This document shows positions 42,512-49,400 of a stretch of DNA of 64,000 bases, piece after piece; within the stretch, counting starts at the first letter, position 1, and the number at the start of each line of letters is the position of its first letter. This stretch comes from Anaerolineae bacterium (GTDB lineage Bacteria; Chloroflexota; Anaerolineae; 4572-78; J111), in assembly GCA_016926805.1 (NCBI GenBank), contig JAFGNV010000090.1, positions 62,001 through 126,000 of the forward strand, given 5' to 3'. The position numbers and the translations under genes were made by a program. Below the pieces are notes generated by a model. That model was not told where the DNA came from and made no database searches. It was given only the letters and a program-made list of their open reading frames with translations.

Positions 42512-42745
42512 TTAAAGTGATAGGTTGGTTGGGTTCAATCTGGTCACCTTGCTGGCTTGCAATCCCTTGGCGGTTTCTTCCAGCGCAAACTCTACCCGGT
42601 CGCCCTCTTCCAGGTAGCGGTATCCCTCCATTTGGATAGCCGAAAAATGGACAAAGATGTCGTTGGAATTGTTTTCGTGAGTGATAAATCCATAACCTTT
42701 GGCCTTGTTAAACCATTTTACGGTTCCGACAACCCGCTCATTCAT
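42512..42745 (-). CDS. Cold-shock domain protein
   Basis: A 77-residue protein, the normal length of this family, with RNP1 GYGFITH, RNP2 DIFVHFSAI and the start VGTVKWFNKAKG. It binds single-stranded RNA and DNA. A strong AGGAGGGAG site precedes the ATG. Confidence 0.97.
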   Translation of the reverse strand: MNERVVGTVKWFNKAKGYGFITHENNSNDIFVHFSAIQMEGYRYLEEGDRVEFALEETAKGLQASKVTRLNPTNLSL

Positions 42746-42798: not shown

Positions 42799-42827
42799 AG
42801 TTTAATATAGACTACATAATTCGTCAA
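42799..42827 (-). promoter_or_regulatory. Candidate csp promoter
   Basis: Minus strand TTGACG (42827-42822), 17 bp, TAAACT (42804-42799). This gives a leader of about 45-50 nt, far shorter than the long cold-shock leaders of enterics. Confidence 0.4.
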
Positions 42828-42889
42828 ACTGCCCTTAACATTTTGTAATAAATTGTTATAAACTGTTAGGTTCAATCCCCCCCTTTATG

Positions 42890-42898
42890 TGCTAGAAT
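42890..42898 (+). promoter_or_regulatory. Extended -10 for the candidate sRNA
   Basis: TGCTAGAAT at 42890-42898 on the + strand, 7 nt before GTAAAC at 42905. No good -35. Confidence 0.5.
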
Positions 42899-42903
42899 AG
42901 GAT

Positions 42904-42976
42904 TGTAAACATTTATTCCCTCCTCCTTTTATTTTTGTTTACCCCCGGTTGGCCCAACAACCGGGGATTTTTTTAT
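42904..42976 (+). ncRNA. Candidate small RNA with anti-SD CU-rich loop
   Basis: There is a promoter-like element and a strong rho-independent terminator on the + strand with no + gene nearby. The predicted about 70-nt RNA has a 7-bp stem GTAAACA (42905-42911) / TGTTTAC (42936-42942) enclosing a 24-nt pyrimidine loop with CCCTCCTCC (42918-42926), the complement of GGAGGAGGG. The second hairpin (CCCCGGTT/AACCGGGG, 42943-42966) is the terminator, followed by seven Ts. The CU-rich loop suggests base-pairing with Shine-Dalgarno regions. This is inference from sequence. Confidence 0.5.
42943..42974 (+). terminator. Strong rho-independent terminator (+ strand)
   Basis: CCCCGGTT, 8-nt loop, AACCGGGG, A, TTTTTTT. 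The T-run is on the + strand only, so it does not end the histidine kinase gene that lies on the minus strand. Confidence 0.85.
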
Positions 42977-42983
42977 CTCGGTT

Positions 42984-44171
42984 TTAAGGTCCAGCGGCAT
43001 GTTTTGATCTTGTAGCTGTTGTTGCCGGCGATTGCGCTTGTTGCACCGGCAGGGTCACCATAAATGTTGTTCCTTCGCCGGGCGTACTTCTGGCGGTAAT
43101 GTTTCCTCTGTGCCGGTCGACAACAATCTTGCGGCAAATGGCCAGGCCAATGCCGGTGCCCTCATATTTACCGCGACCGTGCAAACGTTCGAAAACGTGG
43201 AAGATGCGTTCCAAATTTTTTTCATCAAAACCAATGCCGTTATCTTCAATCGTCAGTTCACACCATCCATTGTTGATTTTTGCCCGTATTTTTACCAGGG
43301 GTGGCTTTCCGGGCTGGTGATATTTGAGCGAATTGCCGATGAGGTTTTGAAGCAATTGTCTCATCTGCACGGCGTCGGCCTCGATGGTCGGTAACAATCC
43401 GACGGTTATTTGACCTCCGGACTCTTCAATTCGCCCTTCCAGATCAGTCAACACCTCCGAAGCGATCCGGTTCAGGTCAACCTGTTCAAACGGGTGAGCG
43501 CGGGTGGTAACCCGCGAGTAGGTCAACAGGTCTTCAATCAGGTCTTGCATGCGAGTGGCTGCATTCAACATCCGGTGCAAATAATCAAGGGCCTGTTCGT
43601 TCAAAGAACCGGCATATCGAGTGTGCAGCCGATGACTGAAGAGTTGAATTTTGCGGAGTGGTTCTTGTAAGTCGTGCGAGGCAATGTAAGCAAAGTTTTC
43701 CAATTCACGATTGCTGCGTTCTAAATCGACTGTATAGGCCTGTAATTGATCACGTATGGTCCGGTAATCGTGAAGGCGGTTGGTCAGGTCGGTAACATCT
43801 TGAATGACAACCAGGGCATAAAAACCGGTGTTAGCAGGATTGTTAACGGCGACAACAGTGGTGTGTTGGATGCGTGGTTGTCCATTGGGTAGATAGGCCG
43901 GGATGATAAATTTATGGAGTTGTGAAGAAAAAATGGTGGGCGGGCCGCCTTCAAAAATGTTTTGCAGGCGGCTGAGATATTTTGGCTCGTTTAGATGGGG
44001 AAAATAGTTGCCAATGTTGGCGCCCACAATTTGATGGCCCAATACATTTGTCCAGTCTTCAAGACAGCGGTTCCAAAAGAGAACAACCAGATCGTCTCGC
44101 AACACAAAGGCGCCAACCGGAACGTGATCGAGAATATTGAATTGAGCACTGGCCGACCCAATTTCGTTCAT
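42984..44171 (-). CDS. PAS-domain sensor histidine kinase (soluble)
   Basis: A 395-residue kinase without a membrane segment. A PAS domain covers about 10-130 (HVPVGAFVLRDDLVVLFWN), then a coiled stretch, HisKA with the phospho-histidine in YIASHDLQEPLRKIQ and HATPase (NLIGNSLKYHQPG, DNGIGFDEKN, GTGIGLAICRK). It is of the phytochrome-like/bacteriophytochrome kinase type by the SHDLQEPLR box. It belongs to the cheY-cheC set just upstream; a MITE-like element separates them. Confidence 0.93.
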   Translation of the reverse strand: MNEIGSASAQFNILDHVPVGAFVLRDDLVVLFWNRCLEDWTNVLGHQIVGANIGNYFPHLNEPKYLSRLQNIFEGGPPTIFSSQLHKFIIPAYLPNGQPRIQHTTVVAVNNPANTGFYALVVIQDVTDLTNRLHDYRTIRDQLQAYTVDLERSNRELENFAYIASHDLQEPLRKIQLFSHRLHTRYAGSLNEQALDYLHRMLNAATRMQDLIEDLLTYSRVTTRAHPFEQVDLNRIASEVLTDLEGRIEESGGQITVGLLPTIEADAVQMRQLLQNLIGNSLKYHQPGKPPLVKIRAKINNGWCELTIEDNGIGFDEKNLERIFHVFERLHGRGKYEGTGIGLAICRKIVVDRHRGNITARSTPGEGTTFMVTLPVQQAQSPATTATRSKHAAGP

Positions 44172-46403: not shown

Positions 46404-49400
46404 ATGATCGGTCGTACACTCGGCAATTACCGGATTATCGAGCAAATTGGGATGGGCGGCATGGCCACCGTCTACAAAGCCTACGACCCCGACACCGACC
46501 GCTACGTGGCCATCAAAATCCTGCCCGAACACTTCTCGCAAGACCCCAAATTCCGCCAGCGCTTCGAGCGCGAAGCCAAAGCCATTGCCAAATTGGAACA
46601 CATTCATATTCTGCCCCTTTTTGCCTACGGCGAGGAGGGCGGCACCGCCTACATGGTGATGCGCTATCTCAAGGCCGGTTCCCTTACCGATCGCATTCGA
46701 GCCGGGGCGTTGTCTTTAACTGAGGCCAGCCGTTTGTTGAGCCAGGTGGCCAGTGCCCTCGATCACGCCCATTCGCACGGCGTGCTCCACCGGGATGTGA
46801 AACCCAGCAATATTCTCCTCGACGCCGACGGCAACGCCTTTCTCACCGACTTTGGCATTGCCAAAATGGTGGAAAGCACGCTCGACCTGACCGGCGGCGG
46901 CATTCTGGGTACCCCGGCCTACATGAGTCCCGAACAGTGCCGGGGCAATCAGGAACTGACCCCCGCTTCCGACCAATATTCGTTGGGAATTATTCTTTAC
47001 GAAATGATTACCGGCCGAACGCCGTTTCAGGCGGAAACACCTATTGCTCTCATTCACATGCAGTTGAACGACCCCCTGCCGATGCCCCACCAGGTGCGCG
47101 CCGATTTGCCGGAGGAGGCGGAACGGGTCATCCTCAAAGCCCTCACCAAAGACCCGGAACTCCGTTTTCCCACTTGCGGGGCTATGGCCGCCGCCTTTGC
47201 CCGGGTAGTATCGCAAATACCTGCAGCCCAACTGGCTGAAGGTGATCTGACCGTGGGTGACCAGGCCCCATTTGCCCCAACGGCCGCGGTGGTAGAAGAT
47301 GCGACAGTATTGCATGGCGCGGCTGAACAGGCTGCCGCCCGGCCGAAACTTCGCCGGGGGATGCCGGGCTGGGCATGGGGCGCAATTGGATTGGTGGTTA
47401 TCTTGGGTTTGCTGGCGACGGCGATTGTGCTGGGGTGGTTCCTGCTTGGGGAAGACGAGACAACGCCCGTAGCTGAAATGCGCCAAACACCCGTCGCCGG
47501 AGGGGAGGATAAGGCCGAGAAAACCCCGACCACCCCGGGTGAGCCAGCTTCGCCGGAAATGCCCGCCGTCTCGGCCCCTGTTTCGCCGGGCGAACCGCCT
47601 CAAGGCCTCAAAGAGGTGAGGCCGTGTGATTGGCAAGGACATGGTTCTGGCTTGTGTATCTATGAACCGTCAAAAGAAAAACCTATCAGAAAAATCCTTC
47701 AGAATGAGAATTTTGAATTCCCCGGGATGGCCGCCTGGAGTCCGGATGGCAAACGAATCGCTTTCACCGCCGTGGAATCGGGCGGCAGTCACGACCGCGA
47801 TATGACCATTTATGTGGTTGACACCGACGGCAAAAATCTGGTCGAGCTGCCTCAGCTGAGTAATGACCTGAATCCGGCCTGGAGCCCCGATGGTGAATGG
47901 CTTGTTTTTCACAGCGGTTGTGATCTGGGAAAGATGCGACCCGATGGTTCTGAGCCAAAGATTCTCTGGCAACATGAGGCTGACAAATGTGTCGAACAAG
48001 CTCAATGGTCGCCCGATAGCCAGTTGATTGTTGTTTCCGTGCACACCGACGGGGGACATGAGATTTGGGTGACCACTGACAATGAAGGTGCACCGTTTGT
48101 TTCAGTTGCCACTGTTACTTACCAAAACGATAACTGCATGAGTCCGGACGTTGCCTTCAGTCCTAACGGCAAACGGGTCGCCTACATCGATGACAAATGT
48201 CAGGCGTGGCTGGCTAACGCCAACGGGTCGGGCCAGCCCGAACCGCTGCCCGATTTCCCTTATTGGTGGATGGCCTCAGCCTATCCGCAGTGGGGCACAA
48301 AGCCACCGGCCGGGCCTGTCGCCGCAGAGATTGCCGGGCCCAAATACCTGGGACTGTGTTCCGAAACAGACCCGGGCCGGTTGTGTATATTTGATGCGGA
48401 AACAGATCGGAACGTCCCCATACCTGTCGACCTGGATTTGCAGGACAGCTCCTGGCAATCCTGGTCGCCCGATGGCCGGCAGGTTGTGTTCGATGCCGGG
48501 CCGGATGAACGCCATAGACTTTACGTCGTCAACACCGACGGTTCCGGTCTGGCCGCCATTACCGAGGGCGCCACTAACGATCTTTTGCCCATCTGGTCGC
48601 CCGCCAGTGCGTGGATTGCCTTTCACCGCAACTGTGAATTGTGGCGCATCCGTCCCGATGGAACAGGGGCCGAAATGCTGGCGCCCCACACTAAAAACTC
48701 CTGCGCCCAGATGGCGGGTTGGTCTAGCGATGGGCGGCGGCTGGCTTTCATCGACGCGCTTTACGAGGAGTCAATTCCAGGCAAAGTCTGGTTGATTAAT
48801 CCTGACACTAAACTCACCCAGCAACTTTACACCTTTGCCCCGCGAGCGGAGCCATGGAAGCTGGCCTGGAGTCCTGATGGACGGCAAATTGCTATTTGGT
48901 ATGGCGAAGATGGGCAAGAGAAAATAATACTGTTGGATGTAAGAAGTGGCGAATCCAAACCGCTCAGTGAGGCCGAAGCTGGCCAAATCGGGCTTTGGAC
49001 GTGGCTATCGGATTATTGGCCGCAGTGGGGTGAGGAGACGGCCGCTTCTGCCGCACCGCCAGCCGCAGAGCCACCCCCGCCAAAACCGGTGGGTAAATGG
49101 GTCGAGACATGCCCAGACACCGAGCCGCCGCAAATCTGCGTTTTCGATGATGAGACCGGAAAGAAAATTCAGTTTACGGCTGATTTAACTTTCGAGTCGA
49201 TAGACAGCCCGAGTTGGTCGCCCGATAGCCGGCAAATTGCGTTCGGTGCCGGCTCAAACCCCGAACGCAGCCAGCAATACGACCACAAACTCTATGTCGT
49301 CAATGCCGACGGCTCCGGCCTGACTCAAATTACCCACGGCGATACCAACGATGTCTCACCTGCCTGGTCGCCCGACGGGGAATGGATCGCCTTTCATCGC

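Follow-up and report, generated by a model that had tools for sequence, protein, structure and literature searches.

Three kinds of small RNA are the closest described counterparts of the locus analyzed here. The csRNAs of Streptococcus are CiaR-controlled and measure 51-202 nt (PMC3091779); RoxS/RsaE is under two-component control, by ResDE and its homologue (PMC8216469); and the cuckoo-type RNAs of alphaproteobacteria form tandem hairpins, often lie beside a DUF1127 gene, and are driven by RpoH in Rhodobacter (PMC3927594, PMC10253847). For the group of bacteria considered here, no description of anti-Shine-Dalgarno (anti-SD) sRNAs was found in the literature. The window, a stretch of 64,000 nt from the genome of an Anaerolineae bacterium, carries between two genes of opposite orientation a short interval that seems to encode an RNA of this kind. 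The reading favored in this work, with a probability of roughly three in four, is that of a multi-copy anti-SD sRNA activated by a two-component system.

Organization of the predicted sRNA locus

The predicted sRNA, of approximately 70 nt, occupies positions 42905..42974 of the + strand, as indicated by the position of its promoter, its terminator, the z-score of its fold and a covariance model match; its start was set approximately 7 nt past the -10 element and is uncertain by 1-3 nt. The extended -10, TGCTAGAAT (42890..42898, + strand), lies 19 bp after box A (CTTAACATTTTGTAATAAATTGTTATAAACTGTTAGG, 42834..42870, + strand), a block of direct repeats of approximately 10 bp that is predicted to be the site of an OmpR-family response regulator (RR), and which the first-pass annotation had missed. 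Folding places a 5' hairpin at 42905..42942, where GTAAACA (42905-42911) pairs with TGTTTAC (42936-42942) to form, in the RNA, the 7-bp stem GUAAACA/UGUUUAC around a 24-nt pyrimidine-rich loop. Within this loop lies the anti-SD element CCCUCCUCC (CCCTCCTCC in DNA; 42918..42926), with an unpaired probability of about 1.0. The RNA would end at a Rho-independent terminator of the CCCCGG…CCGGGG-T7 type, CCCCGGTTGGCCCAACAACCGGGG-A-T7 (42943..42974; stem 42943-42966, T7 42968-42974). The extended -10, the stem, the pyrimidine loop and the + strand terminator all lie where the first-pass annotation had placed them. The folding energy of the 70-nt RNA is -23.6 kcal/mol versus -10.8 +/- 2.3 in dinucleotide shuffles (z = -5.65). 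In the window copy only, a CAU is found at 42910..42912, a position from which both the SD and the AUG of a single mRNA could pair, as in the csRNAs; by alignment, the closest copies do not keep it.

The divergent neighbor is a cold-shock protein gene (csp, 42512..42745, minus strand; Pfam CSD), and the convergent one a PAS histidine kinase gene (42984..44171, minus strand; Pfam) that serves as a synteny marker; genes for CheX/CheC-like, receiver and LysM-M23 peptidase proteins complete the neighborhood. A promoter-like site for csp (42827-42799) stands back to back with box A within 42799-42870, and a regulator bound at box A could act on csp too; the csp-beside-sRNA arrangement is absent in the sister species G001. 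Downstream, the next + strand gene starts only at 46404, as expected from the initial observation that none lies within several kb, and the lack of a following + strand gene rules out a leader or attenuator in the window. The interval was also considered as a terminator of the kinase gene, which is ruled out by the T-run being present on the + strand only, the minus strand being without a U-tract after the terminator hairpin, and as a small ORF. On the + strand, the 70 nt hold only a TTG frame without SD that runs into the terminator, while the minus strand offers a perfect SD-ATG, with a frame of just 6 codons (MFTILF), that the C84 copy of G001 lacks.

Conservation and copies of the RNA

Taken singly, promoter-like and terminator-like matches occur at chance level in the region by motif scan, which speaks for a chance encounter of such sequences in an intergenic gap with no functional RNA. 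What places the locus above chance is that the whole promoter-antiSD-terminator unit is conserved elsewhere, at further loci and across genomes. In G001, two loci match the interval 42833-42976, with E of about 1e-10 and 6e-9; these loci, on contigs C84 and C233, both keep box A, the extended -10, CCTCC(T)CC, and CCCCCGG..CCGGGGG plus T7. A covariance model was built from three copies (G000 C77, G001 C237 and G001 C84), with the window copy left out, and matches the window copy at E=1.7e-5, a copy on contig C209 of the same genome at 2.6e-10 and one in G007 at 2.5e-8; the covariance search of relatives proposed in the first-pass annotation recovered the anti-SD and terminator unit in the sister species and in paralogues. 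With these E-values, and with a box-to-promoter spacing fixed at 18-19 bp and no match in the control (see below), the chance explanation deserves hardly any weight, and a genuine sRNA gene at 42905-42974 (+) is very probable.

The C84 locus is the syntenic copy, with the same histidine kinase and the CheC/CheX-type gene beyond it, and with an inserted gene for a bacterial Roco protein (LRR-Roc-COR, L107:2146-5700) separating the kinase homologue from the sRNA. The C233 copy sits elsewhere, after metH; a + strand gene begins about 90 bp beyond it, and a leader role is conceivable for that copy. These positions bear on the possibility that the RNA acts in cis, overlapping the 3' untranslated part of the histidine kinase operon that converges on it, and either controlling that mRNA or being titrated by it. 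Such a role would fit the end of the kinase gene lying 10 nt from the T-run with no minus-strand terminator between, the likewise convergent C84 copy, and the full complementarity of the antisense strand, which includes the only AAGGAGGAGG-N-ATG of the genome. However, C233 and the copies of types B and C described below have other neighbors, so that the conserved body does not follow the kinase, and action in cis is judged quite improbable.

The 7-bp 5' stem is absent from both C84 and C233 by alignment and folding, and it is for this reason regarded as a local feature. The proposal of the first-pass annotation that the RNA pairs with ribosome binding sites holds up as an idea, the anti-SD loop sequence (kept as CCUCCUCC or CCUCCCUCC in relatives) and the terminator being conserved, the anti-SD being predicted as unpaired in most copies, and no credible ORF being present; the stem thought to display the loop does not hold up, and in relatives the anti-SD would simply be single-stranded. 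The terminator hairpin with its T-run is conserved among the copies of the genus.

Nor is the RNA an orphan, as had been supposed, since at least two more loci of its genome (C77 and C209) carry the RNA body. Pattern and covariance searches together yielded further copies at C209, at G001 C41, at G007 C520, twice each in G010 and G006, and once in G017 (family f3) and once in G018 (family f2). Sorted by promoter, type A copies carry box A; type B copies have AAACCCCCAAAAATTGGGG upstream (C77, C209, C237, C41, G010 C3 and G006 C4); and type C copies have a plain TTGACA-N17-TATATT promoter (G010 C1 and G006 C3, both 3' of ksgA-like genes), to which the promoter of the G017 copy is similar. The inverted repeat AAACCCCCAAAAATTGGGG is conserved within the family (L100:2600-2755, L099, L161, L162, L165, L166), and this type B operator is also present at other loci. 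The RNAs of paralogues C209 and C41 (L161:2393-2540, L162:2444-2590) contain, close to the 5' end, a GGAGG that is predicted to pair with their own anti-SD, a possible self-sequestering or sponge-type switch.

Box A and its probable two-component regulator

Alignment of 12 promoters from four genomes defines box A as a 37-bp repeat box, with consensus CTTAAYATTTTGTAAYAAAYYGTWAYAAAYTGTTWGG, followed by 18-19 bp and then TGNTA, the counterpart of the extended -10 of the window. The composite pattern TWAYRNAYYGTTNGG-N18,19-TGNTA has 12 matches, confined to 4 of the 25 genomes of the order, and the reversed control has 0; one of the 12 (G001 C158), without upstream repeats, is doubtful. Beside one of the boxes is encoded an OmpR-family regulator (Response_reg and Trans_reg_C domains in Pfam), whose orthologues (5 genes) are found in exactly the four box-A genomes, at 64-73% identity, the next best match reaching at most 43%. 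The nominal probability of two identical 4-of-25 sets is about 8e-5 under the assumption of independent genomes, a value that makes the association look stronger than it is, given that the genomes are related, two of them sharing a genus. All 5 RR loci have a box-A-like site immediately 3' of the RR gene (the G006 C3 site being degenerate and without a composite match). In the source genome the RR gene is at C54:35233-35979 with a histidine kinase gene directly upstream; a kinase gene ends directly upstream of the RR gene in 3 of the 5 loci, and the kinase of G001 is a GAF/PAS sensor.

Adjacency and co-occurrence suggest that the RR binds box A. Because box A and the RR share four genomes and box-A-like sites follow all RR genes, it is most likely that the sRNA is activated by the two-component system of this RR, and that it represses mRNAs by covering their SD sites. 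Only three sRNA copies, in two genomes, carry box A, and with promoters of other kinds in the remaining copies the RR input would be lineage-specific. Box A is also found 5' of an orthologous gene (product V/RVMILEGSNGQSFF...) in three genomes (L106:2133-2725, L103:1641-2226, L104:1751-2404). This gene is a predicted conserved member of the regulon; of its three members, L106 and L103 were scanned against Pfam and gave no match.

The sequence of events would be as follows. A pair formed by a histidine kinase and the OmpR-family RR would sense some stress, and the phosphorylated RR would bind the approximately 10-bp repeats of box A beside the -35 region, recruiting RNA polymerase to the extended -10. 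An RNA of approximately 70 nt, ending at the terminator, would then be made, in which the unpaired CCCUCCUCC(UUU) would pair with SD sites of the AGGAGG(GAA) type, blocking ribosome binding and reducing translation from a set of mRNAs. Paralogues with other promoters would couple this anti-SD module to different signals.

Predicted targets

Perfect extended targets, GGAGGAGG 5' of ATG, for which the first-pass annotation had proposed a search, are not found in the genome except on the antisense strand of the sRNA itself, which is also the sole genome match of AAGGAGGAGG-N2-10-ATG. Since GGAGGAGG before ATG is absent elsewhere in the genome, the RNA would be expected to target ordinary AGGAGG(GAA) sites. 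The pattern AGGAGGGAA-N1-7-ATG, a 9-nt complement, has 16 genome sites versus 4 for the reversed pattern. The 15 non-self sites are predicted targets, 12 of which open plausible ORFs of at least 63 aa; they include two Ser/Thr kinases (one of them at 46404 in the window), a receiver protein, two cNMP-binding proteins and an AMP-binding enzyme. Within the window, SD sequences are used to a moderate extent only.

The absence of perfect extended targets also bears on a different assignment, in which a real, RR-controlled RNA would use its C-rich stretch chiefly for a different partner, acting as a sponge of G-rich RNAs, by binding a protein, or as a general mimic of the 16S tail, instead of repressing particular mRNAs. 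The internal pairing of the anti-SD in some copies would fit such a role, as would the likeness of CCUCCUUUC of the paralogues to the 3' tail of 16S rRNA. Against it stand the unpaired anti-SD of most copies and the excess of 15 non-self start sites with the 9-nt complement over 4 reversed-pattern matches; in addition, analogous C-rich sRNAs repress at SD sites (PMC3091779, PMC8216469). Another main partner is consequently considered unlikely, if less so than action in cis, and repression at SD sites remains the preferred role of the RNA.

Wider distribution

A covariance search of 396 genomes of the class gave 29 with a match at E<=0.05, of which about 20 are expected by chance, and given this expectation only groups with conserved flanks were used. 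Two such groups look real: five genomes of family f37 share ACTCrTTTTCCTCC... plus GCTCCGG..CCGGAGC (L174, L176, L180, L189, L191), and three genomes of one genus of family f12 share CACCTCTCCTCCTTTCCTTGG... (L177, L182, L185). The motif being short, these units may be either homologous or convergent. An exact-pattern scan of named genomes gave 20 matches, mostly within unrelated sequence, and was set aside. More tentatively, and with odds somewhat below even, the RNA of the window may be one branch of a class-wide, multi-input anti-SD sRNA system forming a major post-transcriptional layer, in which one output module (CCUCCUCC plus terminator) would be coupled either to a box of OmpR type, to an inverted-repeat operator or to a plain sigma-70 promoter.

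Outside the class, three Acidobacteria contigs (L117:7346-7408, L121:4806-4868, L128:2856-2918) share ACCTCCTCCTTTCGCyCCCCsGGCGGCCCCACCCCG..GGGG plus a T-run, with a partly conserved upstream stretch. This unit has no Rfam match and is a probable separate family of anti-SD sRNAs.

Comparison with known anti-SD sRNAs

The locus resembles the csRNAs in its predicted OmpR-family regulator with direct repeats upstream of the -10, in the presence of several similar small RNAs per genome, and in its Rho-independent terminator. The window copy also has the unpaired complement of the SD (and AUG) between two stem-loops, of which relatives keep the SD complement and the terminator stem only. Unlike the CiaR repeat, TTTAAG-N5-TTTAAG located 10 bp before the -10, the repeats here are of GTAAY type with a 10-bp period, and they end 19 bp before TGCTAGAAT, a longer distance combined with an extended -10; the TTTAAG pair is absent from the window promoter. 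Furthermore, no sequence homology to csRNAs was seen, and the 5' stem-loop is not conserved here.

With RoxS/RsaE (RF01820) the RNA shares a C-rich unpaired region aimed at SD sites, a terminator hairpin and, as predicted, two-component control. The RF01820 model, however, scores 29 bits on the window versus a gathering score of 79. No Rfam family reaches its gathering score in the window, and membership of one was rejected, the sub-threshold matches (RsaE and others) reflecting a shared terminator and C-rich make-up. Anti-SD loop motifs like CCUCCUCCC link the RNA to the cuckoo RNAs, including CcsR, and to SmelA075/SmelA099 (PMC3927594, PMC10253847); the exact 9-mer CCUCCUCCC is absent, and CCCUCCUCCU occurs in the hairpin loop of the window copy only. 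In contrast to the cuckoo RNAs, there is here a single copy at the locus, with one loop, no DUF1127 neighbor and an RR-type box.

In its proposed mechanism the RNA resembles csRNAs, RoxS/RsaE and cuckoo RNAs, but defining features tested for each of them are absent here, and it is therefore filed as a family of its own, akin in kind to these three and a member of none. If confirmed, the csRNA design of two-component regulator, repeat box and short anti-SD RNA would have arisen independently far from Streptococcus, and the locus would offer a concrete predicted regulon (regulator gene, box, RNA and start sites) in bacteria whose post-transcriptional control is almost unstudied.
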